Assembly (NCBI GenBank): GCA_018267385.1
Contig: JAFDYN010000011.1
Span: 62,001-126,000, forward strand
Reading direction: 5' to 3'
Length of the DNA stretch: 64,000 bases
DNA from: Bacteroidota bacterium
GTDB lineage: Bacteria > Bacteroidota > Bacteroidia > Chitinophagales > LD1
This document shows, piece after piece, positions 32,088-49,673 of this stretch. Under the pieces are notes generated by a model, which saw only the letters and a program-made list of their open reading frames with translations, searched no databases and was not told where the DNA came from. Numbering within the stretch: the first letter of the stretch is position 1; every line of letters starts with the position of its first letter. Position numbers and translations under genes: made by a program.

Positions 32088-34319
32088 CTACCTCCGCTCG
32101 GATAGAGCATCCGTGTTTAATATCACGAACTCCACTCGCCTATTCATCTGGTGTTGCTCTTCACTGCATCCTGACTTCCCATCTGGCGTACAGTCGCAGA
32201 ATATAGCAGGGCGTGTTTTGCCAAAGCCTACAGGTTTCAGGCGTAGCCCCTGTATACCATGCTGCTCCAGGTAGGCCGCAGTAGAGTTGGCCCGGCGTTG
32301 TGAGAGCACCATGTTATAGCTCTCAGATTCACGGCAGTCTGTATGCGCAGAGATCTGCACACGCCAATCAGGATGGTCTTTCATCGCCGTTACCACTTTG
32401 TCTAATTCTACAGCTGCATCAGGGCGGATATTCCATTTATCCAGGTCAAAGTAGATGTTTTGAAGAGATGCTGTATAGTTGATCGTGTTCTGATGGAGGC
32501 CCATGGTTACTTTCAGCGTATCGCCGTTCACGAGCGTTTCTGAGGAAACTACTTTTACCTCAGAGAGATAGTATTTATTGTCTTCTGCCGGTATTTTGTC
32601 TACGTCTATTTTGTATTGATGGCCCACTACTATATCAGCGTATATAATGCCGGTAGCGTCGGTGCGAAACTGTGCATTCTCCTTTGTATTCATATCAGTG
32701 ATCACCCCGGTAGCATGGTTTACGGGCTGATGGGTCACCGCATCCTCTATATTGACCAGTAGATGTACAGCTCCTATGCGTGTGATGTAGATGATGCGCC
32801 TGGTAGTTCCCTCCCGCGTGATCACAGGTACTTCGCGCGCTGCGTATCCTAGTTTTGAAGTGCTTAAAGTATATTGTGTACGTGGCCTGGCACCAAAACA
32901 GAAACCTCCATGACGGTCGCTTTGGTCATCAGTAGATAAACCTGTATCGGTTTCCTTTAGCGTCACTTTTACATCCTCTACCGGTAGATGAGTGTCACGA
33001 TCTACTACCTGGCCCACGATATTGATCTCCTTGCGTACAAATGAGTAAATATCATCACCGCCCTTGCCACCTGCACGATCTGATGCAAACATACCATTCA
33101 CTCCCTTTTCGTCCATGATGTAGCTGAAATCGTCGTAGTTTGTATTTACAGGGGCACCTATATTTCGTGGACGCGACCAGCTACCATCGGGCAGCATATA
33201 GGAACGATATACATCCAATCCACCCAGACCGGCATGCCCGTCGGAAGAAAAATACAAGGCGCTGTCTCCCGAGATAAAGGGAAACATATCATCACCCATG
33301 CTATTGATGTCCGGACCCAGGTTTTTCGGCGTGCCCCACTGACCGGATGCTGCGCGTGTAGTCACATAGATGTCCATACCACCCTGGGCCTCCGGTGCCG
33401 GCATATCACTGGCAAAGTACATAGTACTACCGTCTGACGTCACTGTAGGATGCATCACAGAATATTCATTGCTATTGAATGGAACTGCTTCAGACACCTC
33501 ACTCATAAAGAAACCATACTGTGGGTCGCAGACTATTTTGTATAGCTTGGTTTTGACTGTTTCCGGTTTCTTCTTGTTGCTATTGCTGCGGGTGATGAAA
33601 AGCTCATGAGTAGCGGCGCAATAGCTCGATGGTCCTTCATGAAATTTGTTATTGAAATTGCGAGCCTTCAGCAGCTTAGGATCTGTATAAACCTGTGTAC
33701 TGAGCGAACTGGAGCTGTACAATCTCAGAAAGCCACGCCCCGACCAATTGTCTCGACGCATCACAGGCCTGTGCTGGTCTCGGTTTGAGGTAAGCAATAT
33801 TTGCTTGTCTACGAAGTAGGCTGGCGCAAAGTCAGACCCTTCGGAGCTGAGATGTAGTTGGTTTTCTATCAGGTAGCGGCCATCGTCATATTGTAGTTTT
33901 CCCAGTTCTTTGGTGCCTATGATGCATTGTTGTATTGAAACGTTGGGTTTGCCGGTATAGGTCAGATAAGACTCAAAGCTTTTCCCGGCCAGATCATACT
34001 TCTTGTTGTACCTGAGCTGCTGCGCGTAGTAAAACTTATTGATAGGATCAGCGGCATTATTTTCTGCCAGCGGGGCGTAGGCTTTCTCGGCGGCAATATG
34101 GTCTCCCAGGAGGCGGTAGCAATCTGCGATACGCATCTGCAGGTACACGTTGTCTTTGTCCTTTTTCAGAGCTAGCTGATAGGTCTCCAGGGCGTCTTTA
34201 AATTTAAAGGCATGAAATTGCTTGTCTCCATAGCTGGTCAGGACTTTCTGGGCAAAAAGCATGGGAGCGATCACAAGCAGCAGGATCAGCAGGATAATAT
34301 GAGGTAATAATTTTTTCAT
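32088..34319 (-). CDS. TPR/PD40/OmpA-family protein, PorE-like
   Basis: A 743-residue envelope protein. After a signal peptide (1-23) come TPR-like helices (about 30-150), a PD40/WD40-type beta-propeller (about 190-430, with SNRD, FASD and SSDG blades), a carboxypeptidase-regulatory-like domain (about 440-530) and a C-terminal OmpA domain (619-743) with peptidoglycan-contact residues D661 and R676. PorE of the T9SS has this order, and such proteins often sit beside PorP/SprF genes. It is the last gene of a four-gene run. Its likely role is anchoring the adjacent secretion/adhesion complex to peptidoglycan (inference). Confidence 0.85.
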   Translation of the reverse strand: MKKLLPHIILLILLLVIAPMLFAQKVLTSYGDKQFHAFKFKDALETYQLALKKDKDNVYLQMRIADCYRLLGDHIAAEKAYAPLAENNAADPINKFYYAQQLRYNKKYDLAGKSFESYLTYTGKPNVSIQQCIIGTKELGKLQYDDGRYLIENQLHLSSEGSDFAPAYFVDKQILLTSNRDQHRPVMRRDNWSGRGFLRLYSSSSLSTQVYTDPKLLKARNFNNKFHEGPSSYCAATHELFITRSNSNKKKPETVKTKLYKIVCDPQYGFFMSEVSEAVPFNSNEYSVMHPTVTSDGSTMYFASDMPAPEAQGGMDIYVTTRAASGQWGTPKNLGPDINSMGDDMFPFISGDSALYFSSDGHAGLGGLDVYRSYMLPDGSWSRPRNIGAPVNTNYDDFSYIMDEKGVNGMFASDRAGGKGGDDIYSFVRKEINIVGQVVDRDTHLPVEDVKVTLKETDTGLSTDDQSDRHGGFCFGARPRTQYTLSTSKLGYAAREVPVITREGTTRRIIYITRIGAVHLLVNIEDAVTHQPVNHATGVITDMNTKENAQFRTDATGIIYADIVVGHQYKIDVDKIPAEDNKYYLSEVKVVSSETLVNGDTLKVTMGLHQNTINYTASLQNIYFDLDKWNIRPDAAVELDKVVTAMKDHPDWRVQISAHTDCRESESYNMVLSQRRANSTAAYLEQHGIQGLRLKPVGFGKTRPAIFCDCTPDGKSGCSEEQHQMNRRVEFVILNTDALSERR

Positions 34320-34362: not shown

Positions 34363-35343
34363 TTAGAAATATCGTCCATAGCGAGGGGTTACAAACCGTT
34401 TTTTATCATACCAGAAGTCGTATCCGATCATGATCTCATGGCTACCGCTATTCACTGAGCTGAATTTTGATACGCCACCCTCATAGGCATACCCGATGCG
34501 TAGCTGAGGCGTGATCATAGCCTCTATCATGCCTATCACGGACTCGCCATAGATACGCCTGTCGCCGCCAGTGCGGTAGGAGGCTCCTACTTTGATACGA
34601 TCTATGAAAATGAACATGGCATTGATATCAAAGTCAGGGATGTTCTTCGGAAGGCCCTGCTGATACATGGCCAGAACGGAAGGCGTGAATTTCACAATGC
34701 CTGCCTGCCTGCCGAATACATAGCCTCCGGTCAGAAGATAGTAATTGTAGAGGCGCGCCACGTTGCTATTACCCGGATTTTCGATGGCGCTTTTCTTCAG
34801 TGAATATGGAAGTAGATGCGGGACAGAGAAACCCACAAAAAAACGCTTGCTGTCTTTGTCATTTACATAGATACCCGCTCCGATATTGGGTACAAAGAGG
34901 CTGTGGCCGCCTACGGTCACCATGTCTTGCTGGTACTGCTCATTGAGAACGGCATTGCCGGCATTTTTGGAGAAGTAAGTAAAGCTGGCCTGTACACCTA
35001 TGCTGATGCGCACATTTTTGACCAGAGGCCTGTAGGCAAAGGCAGGAGTGACACTGAATGAATTGGTCAGGCCGAGGTTGTCGTCGGCTATGGTAAGTCC
35101 TAGTGCATACTGGTCACGCTTGAGTGGTGAGTTAGCGCTAAAATTGAATGTGCGGGGTGCGCCATTGACACCGACCCACTGGTGGCGGTACATAGCTACC
35201 ATACTCAGCACGTTATTACTGCCGGCATAGGCAGGATTCAGGTATAGCCCATTGAACATATACATGTTGTAGGACGGGTCTTGCTGGGCCATCGCGTGCA
35301 CCATGGCGATCAGTATGACGATAGTGATATATATCTTTTTCAT
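34363..35343 (-). CDS. PorP/SprF family T9SS outer membrane protein
   Basis: A 326-residue outer membrane beta-barrel with a signal peptide (1-19) and the family's start QQDPSYNMYMFNGLYLNPAYAGS (20-42), then regular amphipathic strands and an aromatic C-terminus (RYGRYF). In Flavobacterium, SprF is needed to export SprB, and PorP/SprF proteins attach type B cargo at the surface. The gene is 43 bp upstream of the PorE-like gene and 20 bp downstream of a type B cargo gene, which fits a dedicated cargo/receptor set. Confidence 0.92.
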   Translation of the reverse strand: MKKIYITIVILIAMVHAMAQQDPSYNMYMFNGLYLNPAYAGSNNVLSMVAMYRHQWVGVNGAPRTFNFSANSPLKRDQYALGLTIADDNLGLTNSFSVTPAFAYRPLVKNVRISIGVQASFTYFSKNAGNAVLNEQYQQDMVTVGGHSLFVPNIGAGIYVNDKDSKRFFVGFSVPHLLPYSLKKSAIENPGNSNVARLYNYYLLTGGYVFGRQAGIVKFTPSVLAMYQQGLPKNIPDFDINAMFIFIDRIKVGASYRTGGDRRIYGESVIGMIEAMITPQLRIGYAYEGGVSKFSSVNSGSHEIMIGYDFWYDKKRFVTPRYGRYF

Positions 35344-35363: not shown

Positions 35364-37097
35364 TTATCTGCTCAGATCCAGGAAACTTGCTTTCTTTCGG
35401 CCGGTGCCGTCGTTATAATAAAGCACATAGAAATAGGTGGCGTCAGGCAGTGCTGCACCGTTATAGTTCTTTCCTGCAAAGTCGTCATGATATGGCCCAT
35501 GGCTATACCAGACCTCATCACCGTTTCGATTGTATATACTTATTGTAGCATTAGGATACCAGTGCAGCAGGTTAGGTATTACAAAATTGTCGTTGGTGCC
35601 ATCACCATTCGGTGTAAATGAGTTTGGTATGATGATCTCATGATAGAGCACTACAGGAGCTGTAGGCGTACCTGATGGACAGGTATCACAATTAGCTGTG
35701 GGGATCGGTACAGCTCCTACACCGGTGAGAAAGCCAAGATTATCCAGTGTGTCAGATATCGCCCTGACATTGATGTCTAGTGTCACGCTATCCAGATGCG
35801 GCAGGCTATCGCTATATACAGCTGTGACGATGCCATTGGTATAGGTCACCTGCATATCCGGAGATGTGGCAGACAGGTACATAGCTCCTGCGGGCAGCGT
35901 ATCGGTAATGGTGAGCGGTGGCTGTAGCGTTTGCCAGCCTGTATTGGTCAGCCGCATATGATAGGTAAAATCATCTCCTATGTAGACACTATCAGGATGA
36001 ACCGTCTTGACAAATTTTACACCAAGCTCTACTACCGGAGAGAATTTGCTATAGCGTGTGGTAGTCGTAAAGTCTGTGAGCCCTGTGCGCGTCAGGAGGG
36101 AGCCATTGCTTATGGCTGAGCCTGTCGTCAGTAAACCGGGCATGGAGCCAGCAGAAGTAGTGTACGTGTCCCATATAGATGCTGATGCATCAGAACGGGC
36201 TATATACGCCTGCGAGTCGTCATAGCGCGGGTCATTGGCTGCCGGACCACCGGGGCCGGTTACTTGATTGTGCTGGAGCGTCAGCGATACATTGGATCCT
36301 CCGGCTATATCTTCGCGTACGTCCCATGTGCGATAGATACCTGCCAGCTCTGGATTAGGCGGATCTATACCCGCCAGAGCGCGGAGGCTGTAGCGGTCAG
36401 TAGTGCCATCATTCAGTAATCTGGCCGGTGTATAGTCTCCAGCCGCTATACCTACGGGGTATATAAATCCTGCAGAGCCGACTGCATCCTTGCTCACTAC
36501 ACCAGTGCTGTCAGTGATCAGGAAATGAGCCGGAGTATAGCCTGCTACGTTACCATTGGTTGTAAATCGGGCATTGTATTGATGCAGTGTCAGATTATTA
36601 CCTGAGGTGCTGCTATCAAAGCTCAATCTGCCGTCAAAGATCATGTCGGCTATAGTGTCTGCGGCATAGCCCAGGACTGCTGCAGGAGGTATATTAATGA
36701 GGGCAGCACCCTGCGGATTGCGTAGCAAGACCCGGCAGCCTATAGTGGCACTACCGCCATCCAGGTTCTGGCCTCCCCAGGAGAGTGCCGTACTACCTAT
36801 GGTGTATATAGCAGGATTGTCAAAAATGATGGTTCCTGTGCCTGTGATGGTAGCAGTGGGCGAGATATACACTTGCTGGCTGGCTATGCGCCAGTCTCCG
36901 ATCACATTGATACGCGCGCCCGGGCCTATATAGAGCTGCTGGCTCATGGTGGTAGCCCCACCGGGGAATATGGTCACTGCGCCTGTCACCTCTGTATAGG
37001 GCGTGGCAGCCCAGGCCATAGTGCTGGTTAGGAGTAGCAGGACCAGGTTGTTGATATATGGGATCAGCTTTTTCATTGCCATACTTTTAGTGAGCAT
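35364..37097 (-). CDS. secreted protein with DUF11-like repeat and type B T9SS C-terminus
   Basis: A 577-residue cargo protein. The signal peptide begins at the Met at 37076 (MKKLIPYINN); earlier in-frame starts at 37097 and 37082 cannot be excluded. A long beta-rich region is followed by a DUF11-like domain (about 370-460, KTVHPDSVYIGDDFTYHMR) and a gliding motility-associated type B T9SS domain (about 490-577, PNSFTPNGDGTNDNF). The SprF-like gene directly downstream is its probable anchor. It is 20 bp from the repeat-protein gene upstream. Confidence 0.87.
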   Translation of the reverse strand: MLTKSMAMKKLIPYINNLVLLLLTSTMAWAATPYTEVTGAVTIFPGGATTMSQQLYIGPGARINVIGDWRIASQQVYISPTATITGTGTIIFDNPAIYTIGSTALSWGGQNLDGGSATIGCRVLLRNPQGAALINIPPAAVLGYAADTIADMIFDGRLSFDSSTSGNNLTLHQYNARFTTNGNVAGYTPAHFLITDSTGVVSKDAVGSAGFIYPVGIAAGDYTPARLLNDGTTDRYSLRALAGIDPPNPELAGIYRTWDVREDIAGGSNVSLTLQHNQVTGPGGPAANDPRYDDSQAYIARSDASASIWDTYTTSAGSMPGLLTTGSAISNGSLLTRTGLTDFTTTTRYSKFSPVVELGVKFVKTVHPDSVYIGDDFTYHMRLTNTGWQTLQPPLTITDTLPAGAMYLSATSPDMQVTYTNGIVTAVYSDSLPHLDSVTLDINVRAISDTLDNLGFLTGVGAVPIPTANCDTCPSGTPTAPVVLYHEIIIPNSFTPNGDGTNDNFVIPNLLHWYPNATISIYNRNGDEVWYSHGPYHDDFAGKNYNGAALPDATYFYVLYYNDGTGRKKASFLDLSR

Positions 37098-37117: not shown

Positions 37118-40063
37118 TTACTTGACCCAGTTGCCAGAGAAATGCTGTATGGTAGAAGAAGACGATATCAATCCCAGTGTGATGGCATTGGTAGCACCGA
37201 GGCCCACGTATACCTTTTCGCCTGCATTGAGGCGCACCAGTGTCGATACCGAGTTGGTCCCTATCGTGCCCGGCCCGAGGCCGAGCGTACTGGCCGAGAG
37301 TACCTGTGTGCTACGTGACGACTGCAGCACTACCGGTGTGCTGCCATCTTTGATGATGGCTATGCCCCAGGAGAAGGTGCCACCTACGCTGAGCAGGGAT
37401 GGATTGATGAGCAGGCTCACGCTATAGGTTAGATTGTAATAGCCGGCTACGGGTGCTGTAAAGTAGCTCGCAGTTGTGTTGGCTATCATGTTGTAATTAT
37501 TGAACTGCGGGTAGGTGTTCAGGTTCGTCAGCGTCTGCGCCTCGTAGGCTGATGCCACGTCAGGCGAACTGCCGAGTAGGAGCGTCAGGCTCAGGAATGA
37601 GTTGCTGGTACTGGTACCTGAAATGTTGAATCCTTTAAAGAGTGAGTCTACAAGACCGGAATTGATCAGAGTCTGTATAAGGCGGAGGCTGTCTACGGTT
37701 ACGCTTGTGTTTTTCAGAGTAGTACCTACGCCATTAGTTACTGCCAATGCAGGAGAACCGCTGGTGAGGTCGTGAGCATGACTACCTATGATGCTGACTA
37801 TCGTGTCACTCACCGGAGAGACGGGCAGGACATGAGCCAACCCAATTGTATCTATGCTCAATGGAGAGGCAGCAGTACCGTTACCGGTCAATGTGCTATT
37901 GTGTACTACTACCTGCGTGCCCCAGTTATCTCCCGTGATGAGTGTAGATACATCAGTGAACGTAGTACCACCAAATGAATCACGGATCAGCACTTGATTA
38001 GGGGTGCCACCGTTTGGCACCAGGCGATTGCTGTCTATATTGATCGCTACATTCTGGAGGCTGGCGCCAGTACCGCCTGTCACAGTGATAGGAGAGGCAG
38101 CTGTGATATTGCGTCCCTGAGCTACTACAGTACTAAAAATGCTGTCACGCAGCGGAGAGTGATTGCTATTATCCGCTACTATCTTGATAATGCTGTCATG
38201 CAATACTGGGCTATTGACTATAGTAGATACGAGCGTGTCTTTATTGATATCTACGCTTGCATTGACCAGCGTAGCACCCGAACCACCAGTTACAGTCACG
38301 AGGCTGCTGCCTGCGGTGAGGTCATGCGCGTCTCCATGTACGATACTCAGTATGGTGTCTCTGGTCGGCTCTGTCTGTATCTCTATGGCCAGGCCAAATG
38401 AATCTATAGTGAGCGGCGAGGTGGTTGTGCCATTTCCCGCCAGCGTATTGTTGTGGAAAATCACCTGGCTTCCCCAGTTGTCGCCGGCAGCGACACCCCA
38501 GACTGAGGAGCCAGATGAATCCTTTATCAAAATTTGTCCGGGAGTACCTCCTGTCGGTACCAGCCGGTTGCTGTCTATGCTGATGCTCATGGCGGCGAGG
38601 CTGGCTCCGGTGCCACCTGCTACTGCTATTGGCGATACTCCTGTTACATTGCTTGCATTGCCATGCACGATGCTGAGTACTGTATCGCGTGCTGGCTGTG
38701 TCTGGATCTCTAACGCGAGGCCAAATGAATCTATTTTGAGTGGCGATGCAGCCGTGCCATTACCGGCTAGAGTTGCATCATGCGCTATCACTTGTGTACC
38801 CCAGTTATCACCAGTGACGAGTGTAGACACATCAGTGAAGGTAGTTCCGCCAAATGAATCACGGATCAGGACCTGATTAGGGGTGCCACCGTTTGGAACC
38901 AGGCGATTGCTGTCTATAGTGATCGCTATATTCTGCAGGCTGGCCCCCGTTCCGCCTGTCACAGTGATAGGAGAGGCGGCTGTGATATTGCGTCCCTGCG
39001 CTACTACAGTACTAAAAATGCTGTCACGCAGGGGAGAGTGATTGCTATTGTCAGCTACTATCTTGATGATGCTGTCATGCAATACTGGGCTATTGACTAT
39101 AGTAGAGACGAGGGTGTCTTTATTGACATCTATGCTTGCATTGACCAGCGTAGCACCTGTACCTCCGGTCACACTCACCAGACTGCTGCCAGCGATGAGG
39201 TCATGCGCGTCTCCATGTACGATACTCAGTATGGTGTCTCTGGCTGGCTGTGTCTGTATCTCTATGGCCAGGCCAAATGAATCTATAGTGAGCGGCGAGG
39301 TGGTAGTGCCATTTCCCGCCAGCGTATTGTTGTGAAAAATCACCTGGCTTCCCCAGTTGTCGCCGGCAGCGACACCCCAGACTGAGGAGCCAGATGAATC
39401 CTTTATCAAAATTTGTCCGGGAGTACCTCCAGTCGGTACCAGCCGGTTGCTATCTATACTGATACTCACTGCACTCAGGGCGGCATGGCTACCTCCTGAT
39501 ACAGCTAGCGGGCTCTGCGCAGTGATGTCTCTGCCGCTATGTGTCACGATACTGACTATACTGTCAGGATTTACATCGATGGTAGCATTGTGCAGGGTCG
39601 CCTGTGCTCCGCTACCTATGGTGATAGCTCCCGACGGAGATGTCAGGCTCCCTGAGCGCAGGAGTACCGCATGGTAGATGCTGTCTATCAGCGGCTGGTT
39701 GTGCGCGTTTTCGGCTATGATGCGGATCACATCCGCCTGGGTCAGCCCCGGAGCAGAGCATAGGTTCATCCACGTACCCGTAGTATATAAGAAGGCGCAG
39801 CCAGAATCGGACACATATACTACCATACCTGGCACGGGGGTAGTGATGGATGCCATCTGCTGGTGCGTCATGCGCGGCAGCAGCAGGCCTTTATTAGTGC
39901 TCTCCATTTCCAGGATGGCAGAGGCATTGATCGTATTGGGGTTGTCTCCCAGCTTCATCTGGGCCCAGGCTGGTGTGGCAAAGAGGAGGACCACTACAAG
40001 TGACAGGATAGCTTTGAGTCGTTTTTCACTACATAGGTGTAGGGTTGAGTATGTCTGTTTCAT
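37118..40063 (-). CDS. 981-residue tail-fibre-like repeat protein with C1q-like C-terminus
   Basis: A secreted protein (signal peptide 1-34). Residues 36-103 are the tail-fibre-like N-terminal module common in Bacteroidota (ILEMESTNKGLLLPRMT). Residues 201-735 hold a 293-residue super-repeat in two copies, with GDNWG at 234, 418, 527 and 711. Each contains NRLVP.GGTP.Q.LI.DS and TLAGNGT..SPL.IDSFGLA units. The last 140 residues resemble a C1q/TNF-like jelly roll (YFTAPVAGYYNLTYSVSL, then VRLNAGEKVYV). No T9SS sorting domain is seen. It is the first gene of the run with the type B cargo, SprF-like and PorE-like genes. A trimeric surface fibre is the best guess. Confidence 0.82.
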   Translation of the reverse strand: MKQTYSTLHLCSEKRLKAILSLVVVLLFATPAWAQMKLGDNPNTINASAILEMESTNKGLLLPRMTHQQMASITTPVPGMVVYVSDSGCAFLYTTGTWMNLCSAPGLTQADVIRIIAENAHNQPLIDSIYHAVLLRSGSLTSPSGAITIGSGAQATLHNATIDVNPDSIVSIVTHSGRDITAQSPLAVSGGSHAALSAVSISIDSNRLVPTGGTPGQILIKDSSGSSVWGVAAGDNWGSQVIFHNNTLAGNGTTTSPLTIDSFGLAIEIQTQPARDTILSIVHGDAHDLIAGSSLVSVTGGTGATLVNASIDVNKDTLVSTIVNSPVLHDSIIKIVADNSNHSPLRDSIFSTVVAQGRNITAASPITVTGGTGASLQNIAITIDSNRLVPNGGTPNQVLIRDSFGGTTFTDVSTLVTGDNWGTQVIAHDATLAGNGTAASPLKIDSFGLALEIQTQPARDTVLSIVHGNASNVTGVSPIAVAGGTGASLAAMSISIDSNRLVPTGGTPGQILIKDSSGSSVWGVAAGDNWGSQVIFHNNTLAGNGTTTSPLTIDSFGLAIEIQTEPTRDTILSIVHGDAHDLTAGSSLVTVTGGSGATLVNASVDINKDTLVSTIVNSPVLHDSIIKIVADNSNHSPLRDSIFSTVVAQGRNITAASPITVTGGTGASLQNVAINIDSNRLVPNGGTPNQVLIRDSFGGTTFTDVSTLITGDNWGTQVVVHNSTLTGNGTAASPLSIDTIGLAHVLPVSPVSDTIVSIIGSHAHDLTSGSPALAVTNGVGTTLKNTSVTVDSLRLIQTLINSGLVDSLFKGFNISGTSTSNSFLSLTLLLGSSPDVASAYEAQTLTNLNTYPQFNNYNMIANTTASYFTAPVAGYYNLTYSVSLLINPSLLSVGGTFSWGIAIIKDGSTPVVLQSSRSTQVLSASTLGLGPGTIGTNSVSTLVRLNAGEKVYVGLGATNAITLGLISSSSTIQHFSGNWVK
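37859..39463. repeat. 879-bp tandem super-repeat in the 981-residue protein
   Basis: Copy 1 spans 38585-39463 and copy 2 about 37859-38584 before it diverges. Long stretches (for example 38401-38580 against 39280-39459) differ at only a few positions. The copies are in register at 293 codons, so homologous exchange would keep the frame. Confidence 0.85.
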
Positions 40064-40300: not shown

Positions 40301-40996
40301 ATGAACGAATCTATGTCCTTAAAGCCGATCAGAGTATTGATAGCAGATGACCACCCGGTCATACTGGAAGGGTTGGCACTGCTACTAAAGCCTGCTAAGA
40401 ATATCACGGTGATTGGTTTTGCGCGAAATGCTGAAGAACTGAATCTGAAGGCTGCTACCTTAAGGCCTGATGTCGTGATTCTGGACGTGATCATCCCTAA
40501 CTGCCTGGCATCAAACAATATCAAAGCGCTTCAAAAAATCCTTCCGGAGGTGCGTATCATCTGCTGCAGCGGCATGACGCTCAATGATCAGATCAGATCT
40601 CTGATCAACGCTGGTATCGATGGTTTTGTACTCAAAACTGCAGTAGCCGGAGAGCTCAGGGCCGCGGTGGAAACCGTGTTTGCGGGAGGCAATTATTTCT
40701 CTCAGGAGATCACAGATATACTCATACGCAGCCTGAGGCAGAATGAGCCTGAAAAGACTGCTGCCGGCGAAGGTTCAGAGCAATTTTCGGATAAAGAACT
40801 AAGCGTCATCAGGATGATCTGTGAGGAGAAATCTGTAAAAGAAATGTCGGAGCAGACCAAGATCAATGCGCGCACGATAGAATCCATCAAGATACGGATC
40901 ATGAAGAAAATGTCTGTGCACAATGTAGCTGGCGTCGTCTCTTATGCCCTGCGCAATAAATACATCAGCCTGGATGACCTAAGCCTCGGTAGCTAG
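40301..40996 (+). CDS. NarL/FixJ-type response regulator 1
   Basis: A 231-residue response regulator: receiver (about 9-125) with D16/D17, phospho-acceptor D62 (VILDVIIP) and the conserved Lys in GFVLKTA, then a C-terminal LuxR-type HTH (SDKELSVIRMICEEKSVKEM...). The HTH is rather divergent. A second response regulator starts 2 bp after its stop, and the nearest kinase is convergent just beyond. Targets are unknown; the two large fibre genes on either side are candidates by position only. Confidence 0.9.
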   Translation: MNESMSLKPIRVLIADDHPVILEGLALLLKPAKNITVIGFARNAEELNLKAATLRPDVVILDVIIPNCLASNNIKALQKILPEVRIICCSGMTLNDQIRSLINAGIDGFVLKTAVAGELRAAVETVFAGGNYFSQEITDILIRSLRQNEPEKTAAGEGSEQFSDKELSVIRMICEEKSVKEMSEQTKINARTIESIKIRIMKKMSVHNVAGVVSYALRNKYISLDDLSLGS

Positions 40997-40998
40997 AC

Positions 40999-41661
40999 AT
41001 GGATAGGATCAAAGTACTTATAGCAGATGATATAGAGATAGTGCGGCGGGGATATGAGATCATATTCTCCCGCAGCGGAGATATCACTATATGCGGAGAA
41101 GCGGTAGACGGGGCTGATGTCCTGGCGAAATATGCTGCATTGAGGCCGGATATAGTGTTGCTGGATATCATGATGCCCCCCAGCAATGGCCTGCGTATAT
41201 GCCGTGAAATACTGGACCTGGACGAAAATGCAAAAGTATTGCTCAATACGGCCCTGTTCAAGGAAGAAGTGACAAGTAAGATATTAGCCTCCGGTGCCAA
41301 GGGGCTGATACTGAAAGATGCCGACTCGGCAGAACTCAGCTCAGCCATTATCCAGATACATCAGGGTGGTGAGTATTACAGCAAGCCTGTGCTGGACCTG
41401 ATAGTCCGCAGGCTCCTGCGTTCAAATTCTGAGAGCTTTCAGGAGTATTGGGGCAGCCAGTTTACAGCGAGGGAGATCAGTATCATACAGCTGACCAGCG
41501 AGGGTCTCACCTCTGCGGAGATAGGCTCCCGCCTCAATCTCAGCAAGCGTACGATAGAAGTCAACCGGAGCCTTATCATCAAAAAGATGGGAGCCAAAAA
41601 TATAGTGGATATGATCATCAAATCGTACCAGATAGGTATGCTGGATATCAATAAATCTTAG
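40999..41661 (+). CDS. NarL/FixJ-type response regulator 2
   Basis: A 220-residue response regulator with D10/D11, D56 (LLDIMMPP), the conserved Lys in LILKDA and a clear LuxR-type HTH (TAREISIIQLTSEGLTSAEI, then LSKRTIEVNR). It lies 2 bp after the first regulator, so the two are one transcription unit and may share or compete for phosphate from the neighbouring kinase. It ends 20 bp from the kinase gene's stop. Confidence 0.92.
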   Translation: MDRIKVLIADDIEIVRRGYEIIFSRSGDITICGEAVDGADVLAKYAALRPDIVLLDIMMPPSNGLRICREILDLDENAKVLLNTALFKEEVTSKILASGAKGLILKDADSAELSSAIIQIHQGGEYYSKPVLDLIVRRLLRSNSESFQEYWGSQFTAREISIIQLTSEGLTSAEIGSRLNLSKRTIEVNRSLIIKKMGAKNIVDMIIKSYQIGMLDINKS

Positions 41662-41681
41662 TCACCACATACTGTATCTAC

Positions 41682-43271
41682 TCACGTAGCAGTAGCATAC
41701 CGCACCAGAGGGATTGTAATAATAAATGTTGCTCCTTGTCTACGGGTCTTATCCAGCTCCAGTTTCCCACCATGCAGCTTTGTGATAATACTGGAAATGT
41801 ATAAACCCAGGCCGAACGATTCTTCGCCATGTGATCCCTTCTTTCCAGCAGTGGTAAATTTCTCGAATAGGTGATCGCGCATATGCTCCGGTATGCCGAC
41901 CCCTTCATCTGATACTTTGATCACTGCGGTGTCCTTTTCCGTAGGGTGGCGCTCCACATCGATGCATATCTGCCCTGCCTGAGGCGAAAACTTGATAGCA
42001 TTATTGATCAGATTGCTTATTGCCCGGCCAAAAGCTTCCTTGTTCATCTTGACATGCATATTATTCTGAGGCATATGGAGGATCAGCTGTTGGCCGTGCA
42101 TTTGGGCGTGAGGAGCCAGCTCGTCTACCTTCTCTTGTAGCACCTGATAGAGGTCATGATTGAGAAAACCGGGCGTGCTGCTATTGCTCAGATAGCGTGA
42201 GAAGGCGAGTATATTATTGATGGAAGAGATGGCCTGCGCACTTGTCTTAGATATGAAGTCTTTGTGACCGTCAGGGTCCTCAGGGGAGAGGCTATTGACG
42301 CTTTTGATCATCCCGATCGGCGCTTTCAGATCGTGTGCGATCATCTCCAGCAGCCCTACCTGGCTGTACACTATGTCCATCTCCAGCCGCCGGCGCGTAG
42401 TGATATCCCGGCAGATGATCCCGATTTTGTCCACTTCCGGCGCCTTTGTATTGCTACTCATGATCGGGAAAAATGACACTTCATAGATCACCAGTTTGTC
42501 TTCGGGATTCGTAGTATATTCTTCTATCAGCGCTTCACCGGCTAACACCCGTTGGATGAGTTGGTAGGAGACCACATCATCCCTATCGGGGAAATCAAGG
42601 GAACTAGGAAAGGGCATCCCTATGGCAGGTTTGAGATGATAATGAAATTCAAACAAGCGCTCGTAAGATTTATTGAATCGTATGATCCGAAGATTTTTAT
42701 CCATCATACAGATGGATTCTTCGATATTATTGAAGAGAATCTCGGTTTCCGACTGCTGTATTTTGCTGCTAAGGAAAGACTGCATGGTGGATCTCAGGAA
42801 AACGACGAAGCGATAAACGATCACGCCTGATGTCAACGTGAATACGAGAAGTCGTATGCTCACTGGCACATTGGCGGGTACAGAGGAGGCCAGATGAGTC
42901 GTCCAGGGGGTATAGTTGACCAGCGCGAAAACAGTCGCGGTACTTACCAAAGAGATGTAGTACTCCGCATATAGCTGCTCCATGTAGAATGCCACGATGT
43001 ACAGAATATTGGCTACATACAGGAATTCAATACCGGTGACGGGAGTGCCTGTCAGACCATCATCTATGATAAAAAGACTGATACACGATATCACTACAAA
43101 CAGCTGAGCCGCCAGCCGGTGATTGGCACCATATTGCAGGGTACTCAGCAGTATGACGATATTGATCACTATGATATAGCATAGCAGCAGCGGAGTAAAG
43201 CCTAGGAGCAAATAAAACGCAATAGCCCACAGCACCAGATTGATGGCCATGAACGGAAGGTTCCGGTTCAT
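41682..43271 (-). CDS. membrane PAS-domain histidine kinase
   Basis: A 529-residue sensor from ATG 43271; the frame also allows TTG at 43301. About six membrane helices (N-terminal 160 residues) precede a PAS domain (about 166-290), a HisKA domain with H313 in IAHDLKAPIG, and a HATPase_c domain with N, DEGVGIP and FGLGLY boxes. There is no fused receiver. HisKA kinases normally pair with OmpR- or NtrC-type regulators, whereas the two regulators next door are NarL-type, which usually go with HisKA_3 kinases. Their proximity still suggests one signalling module. Confidence 0.92.
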   Translation of the reverse strand: MNRNLPFMAINLVLWAIAFYLLLGFTPLLLCYIIVINIVILLSTLQYGANHRLAAQLFVVISCISLFIIDDGLTGTPVTGIEFLYVANILYIVAFYMEQLYAEYYISLVSTATVFALVNYTPWTTHLASSVPANVPVSIRLLVFTLTSGVIVYRFVVFLRSTMQSFLSSKIQQSETEILFNNIEESICMMDKNLRIIRFNKSYERLFEFHYHLKPAIGMPFPSSLDFPDRDDVVSYQLIQRVLAGEALIEEYTTNPEDKLVIYEVSFFPIMSSNTKAPEVDKIGIICRDITTRRRLEMDIVYSQVGLLEMIAHDLKAPIGMIKSVNSLSPEDPDGHKDFISKTSAQAISSINNILAFSRYLSNSSTPGFLNHDLYQVLQEKVDELAPHAQMHGQQLILHMPQNNMHVKMNKEAFGRAISNLINNAIKFSPQAGQICIDVERHPTEKDTAVIKVSDEGVGIPEHMRDHLFEKFTTAGKKGSHGEESFGLGLYISSIITKLHGGKLELDKTRRQGATFIITIPLVRYATAT

Positions 43272-43301
43272 GAAACTCAAGTATTCGTAGGAGCGCTGCA
43301 A

Positions 43302-43691: not shown

Positions 43692-46600
43692 ATGAAACAC
43701 CTCTTACTCCTATCCCTGCTATTTCTATCTTTATTCGTCAGCGCTCAGGCCCCCCCTCAGGGCATAAACTATCAGGCCATTGTGCGCAATGCATCCGGAT
43801 CTGTAGTGGCCAATACACATGTGGCGATCCGTTTTACTATCCATGATCAGACAGCTACAGGCACAGTGGTCTTTCAGGAGACGCATGCACAGACTACTAA
43901 TCAATTTGGCCTGTTCAACTCGGTGATCGGCACCGGTGGAGGCAACCTAAGTACTGTAGCCTGGGGCAGTGGCCCTAAGTTTCTGCAGGTAGAGGTAGAC
44001 GTGAATGGCGGTACCAACTATACCGATATGGGCACCAATCAGATGATGAGTGTGCCATACGCCCTATACGCCGGCAACGGTGGTGGTGGCGCTACAGGCG
44101 CTACCGGTCCACGTGGTGCTACTGGTGCTACCGGGGGCAATGGTGCCACGGGCGCTACTGGTCCCACCGGTGCAGGTGGTGGGGCTACAGGTCCGACCGG
44201 ACCCGCAGGTGCTACCGGCGCAGCTGGACCTCAGGGTGCAACTGGTGCCAATGGTAATGATGGCGCTACAGGTCCCACCGGCGCGAATGGCAATAACGGT
44301 GCTACAGGCCCTACGGGAGCCAATGGTAACGATGGTGCGACAGGTGCAACTGGTGCAAACGGAAACGATGGCGCTACCGGTCCCACCGGCGCGAATGGTA
44401 ATGATGGTGCAACCGGTCCTACGGGAGCCAATGGTAACGATGGCGCGACAGGTGCAACTGGTGCCAACGGAAATGATGGCGCAACAGGTCCTACCGGCGC
44501 GAATGGCAATGACGGTGCAACCGGTCCTACGGGAGCAAACGGTAACGATGGAGCTACTGGTCCCACTGGTGCGAATGGGAATGATGGTGTAACCGGTCCT
44601 ACAGGAGCAAATGGTAACGATGGCGCGACAGGAGCAACGGGCGCCAATGGAAATGACGGTGCAACAGGCCCCACCGGTCCTACTGGGGCAGGTGGCGGTG
44701 CTACAGGTCCTACCGGTCCTACTGGCGCTGGCGGCGGAGCTACTGGTCCAACGGGAGCAAATGGTAATGATGGTGCGACCGGCCCTACAGGTCCTACGGG
44801 TGCCGGTGGAGGTGCTACAGGTCCAACCGGCCCAAGTGGTAATGACGGAGTGACTGGTCCTACCGGTGCGAATGGAAATGATGGTGCTACGGGTCCATCA
44901 GGCGCTGACGGTGCTACCGGCGCAGCAGGTGTCACTGGTCCTACTGGTAGTAATGGCGCTACCGGTCCGAGTGGTGCAGATGGCGTTACCGGACCAACAG
45001 GTGTAAACGGAAACAATGGCGCAACAGGTCCGACTGGTGCTAGTGGTAATGATGGCGTCACCGGACCTACCGGTCCTACTGGCCCGAGTGGTAACGATGG
45101 AGTGACTGGTCCTACCGGTGCGAATGGAAATGACGGTGCTACTGGCCCTGCCGGTGCTACTGGTCCATCTGGCGCTGATGGTGCTACAGGTGCAGCAGGT
45201 GTCACTGGTCCTACTGGAAGTATTGGTACTACCGGCCCGAGTGGCGCAGATGGCGTAACCGGCCCAACAGGTGCAAATGGAAATAATGGCGCAACAGGTC
45301 CGACCGGCGCTAGTGGTAATGATGGTGCGACCGGACCTACGGGCCCTACGGGTGCCGGCGGAGGTGCTACGGGTCCTACAGGCCCAAGCGGCAATGATGG
45401 CGTGACTGGTCCTACCGGTGCGAATGGAAATGACGGTGCTACTGGCCCTGCCGGTGCTACTGGTCCATCTGGCGCTGATGGTGCTACAGGTGCAGCAGGT
45501 GTCACTGGTCCTACTGGAAGTATTGGTACTACCGGCCCGAGTGGTGCAGATGGCGTCACAGGTCCTACAGGCGCTGGTGCTACTGGTCCTACAGGCCCAA
45601 CAGGTACAGATGGTGCCACGGGTGCTCAAGGTCTTACCGGTCCTACAGGTGCTGGTGCCACAGGTCCTACCGGCCCAAGCGGTGCAGACGGAGCTACGGG
45701 CATAGCCGGACCTACAGGTCCTTCCGGTGCCGATGGCGCCACAGGCGTGGCAGGCCCGACCGGCGCAGATGGCGCTACTGGTCCTGTAGGCGCTACTGGC
45801 CCTTCTGGTGCTACTGGCCCTTCTGGTGCAACTGGTTCTACCGGACCTAGCGGTGCAGCCGGTGCAACAGGTGTAGCCGGCCCTACAGGTCCTTCGGGAG
45901 CGGATGGAACCACAGGTGTGGCAGGCCCGACCGGCGCAGCCGGCGCTACGGGTCCATCCGGCGCAGATGGTGTTACTGGTCCTCAGGGTGCTACAGGGCC
46001 TACGGGTGCTGGTGCTACAGGGCCTACCGGTCCTAGTGGTGCAGACGGTGCCACAGGTTTAGCTGGCCCTACAGGTCCTTCGGGGGCGGATGGAGCCACA
46101 GGAGCAGCAGGTCCTACGGGTGCTGCTGGTGCGCCTGGCCCATCAGGTGCAGATGGCGCTACTGGTCCTGCAGGAGCTACTGGCCCGAGTGGTGCAGCTG
46201 GTGCTACCGGTCCGACCGGCCCTCTGGGCACTGCCGGCGGCGACCTTAGCGGTACCTATCCTAACCCCACTGTTTCTGGTATACAAGGAACTCCGGTGAG
46301 CAATACAGCCCCAGCTAATGGCAGCATATTACAATACGATGGTACCAACTGGACTCCATCGGATCCTAATGGTCTCTACTGGAAGGTGACAGGCAATGGT
46401 ACGACCACTCCATCTTCTTCAGCTATAGGTACGGCTGCCACAGGCAATTTTATCGGAACAACTGATGCCAAAGATTTTGTTTTTGCTACTAATAATCTGG
46501 AACGCATGCGCCTCAGCTCTGATGGCAAGCTAGGCTTCCGTACTTTGACGCCTGGGGCAGGGCCCAATACAACTGCTGTACTCGATATATGGGACGAGGA

Positions 46601-49600
46601 CGGTCTGCACAGTGATGTGCAGCAGAGGGTAGCAGGAAATGGGAATAATTCGGCCTTCTACACATTCGCAAAATCCAGAGGTAGTCTGGCAGCCCCTCTG
46701 ACAGCTGTGTCCGGAGACCGTATGGGTCATATTGAAGGACAATTTTATAATGGAACAGCGTGGAACGTAGCTTCCTCTATTGATATAGCGATAGACTCTA
46801 TACCCAATAGCGATGCGCCAGGCAATCTTAGTTTCAATACTACTGCTGTAGGAGCCACTGGTCCTACTCAGAGAATGATCATCAAGAGCAATGGTTCTGT
46901 GGGTATAGGTGTGGGTACGCCTAACTCTCCTCTCACAGTCCGCACCTCACATGCATGGGCCAATGCGCGAATGACGTCACTTGCCAATGCGATCAGCGAT
47001 CAGAATTTTGAACTCGTGACGCAACGTGGTGCCCTCACCAACTCTCCTGGGGATATCATGACCTCCATTGGTCAGGCCTATGGAGGCGGTAGTATATCGG
47101 AGGGTATCAGCTTTATCCGCAATGTAGGAGCTACAGACGGAGCTATGATATTCAGTACCAACAGCGCAACTGAGCGTATGCGTATCCTGAGCAATGGTAC
47201 GGTAGGTATAGGTACTTCCACTCCTTCAGGTTTTGTACATCTCTCTACCAGCTCCGCCCTCACTCAGGTCAATCAATCCAGCTCTGCAGTGGGTACCTGG
47301 CTATCTATCAATAACAGTAGCACAGGTGGCCAATGGTTCCAATTGATCTCTACGGGTAGTAGTAACGGCGAAGGTGCCGGCAAATTTATGCTGACCAAAG
47401 GGGCCGCAGTAGGTACAGTAAGTGGCCGATTTATGGTCTGTGATTGGGCCTCTCTGATGACCGGTATGGCGGGGGTCACGGCACCGACTGCGAATCTGGA
47501 TATCTATGGTACTGCTGGCGGTACAAATTCGCTGCAGCTACGTAGTGGTAATGTCTCTAATGGAACCAACAGCAACCAGATTCTATTTGGCTATAATGGA
47601 ACGGATACTTATCGCCATGCTATCAAAACTCGTCATAATGCAAGTAATGCAGTAGGCAATTCTATCGACTTTTATCTCTGGAAACAAGGTACAGACCTTA
47701 CTACCGATATAGGTACAGATGCTGCTGTCACTATAGATGGTAACTACCGCGGCATGATAGGTGTGGGTACTACCGCTCCCAAGAGTGAAGTGCACATATC
47801 TGATGGTAGCTCTAGTCTCAAGTCGGTGACAGATGCTGGAGGCTATGGTGCTTCGCTGTTGATCACTGATAATTCAATTCCACGCATTTATTTTGAAAAT
47901 GCAGGCCAGGGTACTGATCAGAAAATGATGGGTATCACCTCTCTGGGTAGCACACTGAGTATCGGTGCGCTGAATGATGCTGCCAGCGCATGGACCAATC
48001 AATATATCCTGACAGCAGACCGCAGTGGCAATGTAGGTATAGGTACTGGTTCACCATCAGTCAAGTTTGATATAGAAGGAGGTACAACATCTCCTGCATT
48101 CAAGCTGGTAGATGGTACACAAGGTGCTAATAAGGTGCTGACCAGTGATGCCTCCGGCAATGCGAGCTGGGCTAGCCTGTCTGGCCTTAGTACCAATATC
48201 TATACTGCCGATGGCACACTCGGAGGCAACAGGACCGTGACCATGGGTAGCAACACCTTGACCTTTAATGGGTCTTCTACTTATGCTATTACCGGTTCAG
48301 GTTATGTGGGTATACACACTGCATCTCCTGTCAGTCTGCTGTCCAATACTGCCTTGAATATTATTGGCAGTGATTTTCAGGGCATCAACCCCAATAGCTT
48401 CACATGGGTACACAATGCCAGTGGATATACGGCGGCGATGTACAACAGCGCCACATCGTCCAGTGCCAACGGTCTGGCTGTGAAAGTAGCTGGTACCGCC
48501 AGCAGCAATAGACTGCTCGACCTCTCTACAGGCACCTCTCAGACTACTGCCGGTACTACCGTGATGGAGGTACAGGGAGATGGTAAAGTAGGTATCGGTA
48601 CCGGTAGCCCTTCGTATAGGATGCACGTATACACTCCTACCAATGGCGATGGTATCATGCTGGATGGGGCTAATAGCGTAGGATATGCTTTAGGTACGGC
48701 AGGTACAGTGAAAGCACAGATAGGCATTGCAGCGGGAGCGACAGCCTGGTCTACAGATGCTGCTGTCGGAGACCTGGTAATTAGGTCTCAAGCCAGCACG
48801 CAGAAAATACTCTTCAATACCAATGGCGGTACGGGAGGATCTACCATGGCCATCAATGGATCTTATGTGGGTATAGGTACCACTGCTCCTGTGGTACCAT
48901 TGGATATACAGAGCACTGTGAACTACAATATGGGTAGCTACGGCTATCTCAATAATAGCACATGGGGTACATCTAGCTGTAGCGCCTGCGCCACCAGTGT
49001 ACGCGCAGCGGGGCGTATCGTCTGCCCTGAGTTTAATGCTACATCAGATCGCCGTATCAAGGATATCCAGGATATCAGTAACGGAGCTGCCGATCTTGCT
49101 ACACTCAATCAGATAGAGGTTACAGATTTCAAGTATAAAGACCAGGTGGCCAGTGGATCAGAGCGCAAAAAAGGATTCATAGCTCAGCAGGTAGAAACTG
49201 CCTATCCGGAGGCAGTACACCAGATGACTAACTTTATACCGAATATATATGCGCTGGCTCAGACGGTAGCATACAGTGAGGTGCAGCAGACACTGACCAT
49301 CACTATGGATAAGGCTCATAAACTGGATGTAGGTGATAGGGTCAAACTGATCACAGACAAGACCGATAAGCTGGAAGCTATCGTCAGCGAGGTGCTGTCT
49401 GACAAATCATTCGTAGTGAAAGGAATGACAGAGTCTGCCAAGAGCGTTTTTGTATATGGCAAGGAGGTGGATGATTTCCGTGTAGTAGACTATGACCGTA
49501 TCTATACGCTCAACGTCTCTGCCACTCAGGAGCTCTGCCGCCGTATCGCCGCGCTGCAAAATGAAAACGATGCGCTGAAGAATAACGACTCAAAGCAGAA

Positions 49601-49673
49601 TGAAGCCATCAAGAGCATGAAGGCTCAGATCGATGCGATCAGTGAGAGGATGAATATCACTACTACCAAATAG
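43692..49673 (+). CDS. 1993-residue collagen-like fibre protein with C-terminal S74 chaperone/autoprotease domain
   Basis: Order of parts: signal peptide (1-19); a Bacteroidota N-terminal domain (20-128, [15 protein letters not shown]...VPYALYA); about 720 residues of Gly-X-Y repeats (131-847), dominated by [12 protein letters not shown] and GPS triplets; a linker [13 protein letters not shown]; tail-fibre-like repeats with VGIGT..P motifs (about 870-1760); and a Peptidase_S74 intramolecular chaperone from S1785-D1786 (TSDRRIKD) with a C-terminal coiled coil. In phage tail spikes this domain drives trimer folding and then cuts itself off at that Ser-Asp. The gene should encode a trimeric surface fibre, perhaps maturing by release of 208 residues. 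It lacks a T9SS domain. A consensus promoter and a strong terminator make it monocistronic. Confidence 0.9.
44083..46233. repeat. collagen-like Gly-X-Y coding repeat
   Basis: About 2.15 kb of 9- and 36-bp-based repeats (frequent unit [12 protein letters not shown]) encode the collagen-like tract. A 143-bp segment at 45102-45244 recurs exactly at 45402-45544, 300 bp later, a sign of recent duplication. The tract has almost no Lys or Arg (one GPRG near its start). The long antisense frames through it are by-products of its codon pattern. Confidence 0.92.

Follow-up and report, generated by a model that had tools for sequence, protein, structure and literature searches.

Bdellovibrio produces mosaic adhesive trimer (MAT) fibres in which a signal peptide and a conserved N-terminal domain are followed by a repetitive stalk and swappable tips; the tips include S74 and TNF-like domains, one of the latter close to C1q-like proteins (PMC10769870). 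A gene for a protein of this general layout is found at 37118..40063 on the minus strand (stop included) of the window, meaning the whole analysed stretch of 64,000 nucleotides from a Chitinophagales member of the Bacteroidota (assembly GCA_018267385.1, contig JAFDYN010000011.1). The 981-residue product is read here, with a probability of about 0.6, as a stand-alone, trimeric adhesive fibre of the Bacteroidota cell with the architecture of a phage tail fibre, anchored by the type IX secretion system (T9SS) complex of its own operon. As in the same account of Bdellovibrio, members with and without S74 lie side by side. The differences are the operon with T9SS anchor genes and the N-terminal module (N-module), which is of another kind and shorter: the MAT N-terminal domain of about 130 amino acids (NF053851, Bdello_MAT_N) has no match in the 981-residue protein up to E 0.1, and a putative, distant MAT-type N-terminus belongs instead to a collagen-like neighbour.

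The genes behind the fibre resemble described T9SS operons. In Porphyromonas such a trio makes up a single complex, with PorP joined both to the type B protein and to PorE (PMC9143113), and Flavobacterium johnsoniae has five operons with a PorE homolog, a type B substrate and an SprF-like shuttle (PMC12618676). The three genes downstream of the fibre agree in domains, order and strand with the PG1035 complex and the Fjoh_3952-3951-3950 operon of these two sources. The window differs from them in its first gene, which encodes a presumably trimeric fibre that lacks a sorting domain.

AtaA of Acinetobacter is a trimeric adhesin in an operon with TpgA, an OmpA-like wall-binding partner, and as a type V autotransporter it has a barrel of its own. 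An OmpA-like partner is also present in the window operon, with a generic OmpA-domain match to NF047726 below the cut-off, but a Pfam scan matched no type V autotransporter barrel domain in the 981-residue protein. BclA has a C1q-like head. The likeness to BclA-type filaments lies in the predicted trimeric stalk, the TNF/C1q-like tip, the presumed surface display and possibly a separate basal anchor protein, the basal partner of BclA being BxpB (PMC10470788). The window protein differs in its Gram-negative envelope, its unrelated N-terminus and a chain without collagen, in which neither a Pfam Collagen match nor a Gly-X-Y run of at least five triplets was found. An existing description of such a fibre was not found in the open-licence PMC literature, which is no proof of absence.

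The fibre protein and its parts

The protein is encoded by one minus-strand open reading frame (ORF) of 981 amino acids, the length given by an earlier sequence-only reading of this DNA. Its ortholog in the related genome G005 (G-numbers label genomes, with G000 for the own genome, and L-numbers label examined loci) has equal length and is 84% identical without gaps over the full length. It also has the same two large repeat units, so these units are not an assembly duplicate. From the N-terminus, a Sec-type signal peptide ending AWA/Q (residues 1-34, 39962..40063, recognised by eye) is followed by the N-module (35-104, 39752..39961), a proximal stalk (105-200, 39464..39751), stalk units 1 (201-493, 38585..39463) and 2 (494-786, 37706..38584), a neck with two short helices in a low-confidence model (787-838, 37550..37705) and a jelly-roll head (839-981, 37121..37549). 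The whole is likely to be a trimeric fibre.

The head had been taken for a C1q/TNF-like jelly roll, which is right at the level of the fold. Residues 790-981, modelled with AlphaFold2 from an alignment of two sequences, give a jelly-roll beta sandwich of the kind found in the C1q/TNF superfamily, within the modest confidence of the model. TNF-superfamily ligands are the top matches in Foldseek (E 1.9e-5), and 249 PDB entries, C1QL3 included, match at E<=1e-3. With VIA the model reaches Z 11.2 to LIGHT (root-mean-square deviation 2.4 over 115) and Z 10.1 to the N-terminal lectin of BC2L-C. The C1q profile itself is weak in both orthologs: Pfam C1q matches residues 862-977 with E 0.005 and 17.5 bits, and the corresponding residues 863-978 in G005 with E 0.0019 and 18.9 bits, neither of which reaches the cut-off of 23.7. 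A TNF/C1q-like fold of the head is well supported by these fold matches. The head would be the ligand-binding tip of the fibre, the ligand probably being a glycan or protein on a surface or on another cell. It is rare, being found in two of the 298 genomes of the order (its own and G005) and, in a wider contig collection, only in UBA1941, with a match position equal to that of G005. In the PDB sequence search the whole protein had no match and the head a single one (E 0.84).

The N-module has the consensus GIGT..PD.SA.L.L.ST.KGFL.PR.TT.QR.AI..PA.GLLVYDTD..CFFYY....W.SLC. A local profile places it directly behind the signal region in 65 proteins from 61 loci (60 fetched loci and the window), and it is doubled in 16 of these proteins. 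It is present in 48 of 198 Bacteroidota genomes, with nine copies scattered over the own genome. Residues 55-104 are modelled with a predicted local confidence (pLDDT) of about 87-97, and the weak structural neighbours are Mtd (Z 4.7), the collagen XV trimerization domain (4.5), CBA120 TSP3 (4.3) and likewise the collagen XVIII trimerization domain, all of them trimer-forming. Pfam Mtd_N matches one of 55 module-bearing sequences (E 0.005), and several module-bearing sequences match PHROGs down to 4e-7, with tail-fibre and virion families at about 2e-6. The fold model thus suggests a trimerisation foot, and the N-module and the head would each trimerise.

The same foot is combined with other stalks and tips. 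It stands ahead of collagen stalks at L037, L054, L101, L114 and L126. In the own genome a 709-residue fibre (contig C1, L036 499-2628) has two N-modules and a C-terminal Gp38 match above the Pfam cut-off (E 1.6e-6), by sequence a cellular fibre with a putative phage adhesin tip. N-module fibres encoded in tandem pairs were seen at L114 4316-6771, L145 6821-9565 and L141 3108-6768. The C-termini of the L114 pair differ, as would follow from a swap of tips once the gene has duplicated.

Self-comparison shows that the protein repeats, from residue 201 onward, with a period of exactly 293 residues. The motif GDNWG stands at residues 234, 418, 527 and 711, a spacing of 184, 109 and 184 that agrees with the 184 and 109 noticed earlier. 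The same reading called the two tandem units near-identical. This holds for the first 245 residues (201-445 against 494-738, 229/245 identical, the best of 20 shuffles reaching 0.167 at any 245-residue self-offset) but not for the final 48 or so, which have diverged, so that identity over the full units is 241/293. Each unit contains a GGTPGQ.LI.D...GDNWG...LAGNGT..SPL.I block, followed by blocks in which a short D.I..IV stretch precedes ..SP..V.GGTGA.L.N..I.I. The blocks within one unit are related to each other at offsets 109 and 184, and more copies of them occur in the segment preceding the units. A simple helical-moment scan for coiled coils flagged three short stretches in the protein and none within the two units, and no coiled coils are therefore claimed there. 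Among 30 genomes of the family, the only carrier of the stalk block at E <= 0.001 besides G000 and G005 is G008, where a 1063-residue collagen-containing protein (L094 4594-7785) has one DNWG block about 42% identical to that of the window.

The cores of the two units are more alike within each genome than between genomes. Unit 1 and unit 2 are 90.6% identical at the DNA level in G000 and 92.4% in G005, while identity between the genomes is 80-82%. Differences at fourfold sites are 0.26 and 0.14 within the genomes, 0.42-0.47 between them and 0.61 in the flanks. When the core sites of both genomes are sorted by pattern, 68 fit homogenised paralogs, eight fit orthologs and one is crossed. These site patterns are best explained by concerted evolution of the two units, probably through gene conversion. 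Independent duplication in both species is less likely, as it would have to have produced identical borders twice. The differences that remain between the copies argue against collapsed assemblies. The locus would then be a clean case of a stalk repeat that is kept uniform within each species while the length stays constant.

The operon downstream of the fibre

Three genes follow the fibre on the same strand with gaps of only 20, 20 and 43 bp. The first encodes a 577-residue protein with a DUF11 repeat and a T9SS type B sorting domain (35364..37097, minus strand; CHU_C 5.7e-22 and 78 bits, TIGR04131 46 bits with a cut-off of 35). Directly downstream is a PorP/SprF-family outer-membrane barrel protein (34363..35343, minus strand; PF11751 1e-64, TIGR03519), and the last gene encodes a protein with TPR, PD40 propeller, carboxypeptidase-regulatory and OmpA domains (32088..34319, minus strand). 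The PorE model NF052230 gives this last protein 309 bits with a cut-off of 600, and it is therefore called PorE-like and not PorE. Together the three genes have the composition of a T9SS type B, PorP/SprF and PorE operon, whose products are known to form a complex anchored to the wall. The fibre itself matches neither CHU_C, Por_Secre_tail nor TIGR04131 up to E 0.1 and so has no sorting domain of type A or B. The own genome has a T9SS, with SprA and 18 PorP/SprF places. In the proposed mechanism the fibre without a sorting domain would be held at the surface by the type B, PorP/SprF and PorE complex of its operon, and such docking on the type B complex is plausible but unproven.

The whole block is syntenic in G005, which says little about the link between the fibre and the operon. 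More informative are loci in another genus, L101 (G014) and L126 (G011), where an N-module fibre, a type B protein, PorP/SprF and a PorE-like protein follow each other in this order on a single strand. Their fibres are collagen-stalked and their PorE-like proteins only about 26% identical to that of the window. At L114 (G017) the first three genes are seen in the same order, the fetched stretch reaching as far as PorP, and presumably these three loci are one orthologous locus. At L137 (G040) a PorP/SprF gene is immediately before an N-module fibre. A type B neighbour on the same strand was found for 7 of the 65 N-module fibres, compared to 1 of 197 background ORFs (p 2.9e-4). With the window excluded and the three orthologous loci counted as one, 4 of 62 remain (p 0.012). 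The link between fibre and type B protein is thus statistically enriched but not general. Type A neighbours on the same strand, by a local profile, are unremarkable (4/65 fibres and 10/197 background ORFs). A rule that every fibre adjoins a sorting-domain protein was considered and rejected because only 7/65 have a type B protein on the same strand.

The collagen-like neighbour and surrounding genes

The collagen-like gene lies 3.6 kb from the fibre gene, the distance given in the sequence-only reading (43692..49673, plus strand). Profile matches divide its 1993-residue product into a MAT-like N-terminus, a long Gly-X-Y stalk and a Peptidase_S74 chaperone. NF053851 matches the N-terminus with E 9.9e-10 and 38.4 bits, below the cut-off of 60, and orthologous and related proteins score 34-35 bits. 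The G005 counterpart has 2250 residues (L033 7115-13867), and the difference in length may be due to the Gly-X-Y stalk. Over long stretches, with an identity of about 80% or more, the protein is found in G000, G001, G004 and G005. It is best taken as a fibre of its own, the second at this locus.

Between the two fibre genes (40301-43301) are two response regulators of the LuxR/NarL type, divergent from the fibre operon (40301..41661, plus strand), and a PAS histidine kinase (41682..43301, minus strand), all from profile matches. The kinase has orthologs in two of the 30 family genomes, its own included. The two adjacent response regulators would control the fibre. In G005 three ORFs of 1374, 490 and 224 amino acids are found between an ABC permease and the collagen gene (L033 619-7033); in the window, the permease directly follows the collagen gene. 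Tyrosine integrases lie directly behind mnmE at L050 3767-5008 (G004) and L052 3276-4406 (G003), and the 3' end of mnmE seems to be an integration site in the genus. That the cluster itself is an integrated island is not claimed: an additional copy of the 3' end of mnmE is absent from the window, and the guanine-cytosine content shows no clear shift over the four fibre-operon genes.

Alternative readings and meaning

The sequence-only reading had suggested that the C1q-like head and the collagen stalk might belong to one surface structure, as two chains of a BclA-like filament. The genes are close together with a two-component system shared between them, and this layout is kept in G005; the two genes are thus co-conserved in at least that genome, but synteny alone accounts for it. 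The joint structure found no support, since both proteins come with a stalk and a C-terminal domain of their own, and their N-terminal domains differ with no sign of hetero-assembly. G004, which is 97% complete, has the collagen gene (81-83% identical, with the same right flank) and no match to the head or the kinase. G001 also lacks the head but, being 77% complete and with a contig that breaks off directly behind mnmE, is not counted. In the order, C1q heads occur in 18 of 149 genomes (13 above the cut-off), and they usually share a chain with collagen: a Gly-X-Y run was present in 15 of 20 C1q-headed ORFs, examined from 29 listed places, and the foot motif of the 981-residue protein in none of the 20. 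One such fibre is in the own genome (contig C7, L075 5974-7839), with 621 residues, a MAT-like N-terminus, a short collagen stretch below the cut-off and a C1q head (1.4e-10), so a one-chain fibre of the BclA kind is already present in this cell, and neither window protein has to be completed by the other. Beside this fibre lies a 217-residue protein whose type A sorting domain is weak. A two-chain structure is accordingly improbable, and the 981-residue protein looks like a complete adhesin alone rather than the missing head of its neighbour. Even less credence is given to a part or remnant of a prophage tail or extracellular contractile injection system. The N-module and collagen stalk do resemble phage tail-fibre families, and the head fold also matches a cyanophage fibre domain (8ke9). 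However, a scan of the neighbours gave T9SS, two-component and collagen/S74 proteins, the start of the protein is like a signal peptide and the nine N-module copies are scattered over the genome. Neither phage records (whole protein) nor viral contigs (head) hold a relative.

Several points weigh against the preferred reading of a trimeric fibre anchored by its operon. The C1q matches of both orthologs are sub-threshold and the head model has low confidence (mean pLDDT 54, pTM 0.51). The stalk modelled as a monomer is not confident, with pLDDT mostly under 50. Fold matches of the N-module are weak, with Foldseek E >= 0.11 and Z < 5 over some 45 residues, and a PDB sequence profile search with it found nothing credible. 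The crossing of the outer membrane by a fibre without a sorting domain is not accounted for. By the local profile, a type B neighbour on the same strand is missing for 58 of the 65 N-module fibres, and PorP/SprF is within two genes on the same strand only at the window and at 4 of 60 other loci, so that the anchor complex does not accompany these fibres in general. The 58 fibres speak for an alternative in which the fibre is surface-exposed but independent of its type B, PorP and PorE neighbours and shares one route of transport and anchoring with all N-module and MAT-like fibres, the operon providing co-regulation only. The MAT fibres of Bdellovibrio are likewise displayed, by an anchor that PMC10769870 does not identify, though T9SS is said to be specific to Bacteroidetes (PMC7463736). 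Against such independence, the four genes come in the same order in another genus, where the fibres are of a different kind and the PorE-like proteins divergent, and the genes of the window operon are tightly spaced. It is possible but rather unlikely that the neighbours are unconnected with the display of the fibre.

The anchored trimeric fibre can be extended, tentatively and with considerable doubt, to the statement that some Bacteroidota have phage-fibre-like trimeric adhesins without a T9SS signal, docked on a dedicated type B, PorP/SprF and PorE anchor and combining a collagen-XVIII/Mtd-like foot with exchangeable tips (TNF/C1q, Gp38 and others). The fibre is of a known general kind; its operon with a T9SS anchor complex is unusual and partly recurrent. 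The N-module, in the genomes that carry it, extends the mix-and-match fibres of the Bdellovibrio style to the Bacteroidota. If the operon link is functional, one type of PorP/SprF-PorE anchor would serve to keep a long trimeric adhesin attached to the cell wall, and Bacteroidota fibres without a C-terminal sorting domain would gain a plausible anchor.

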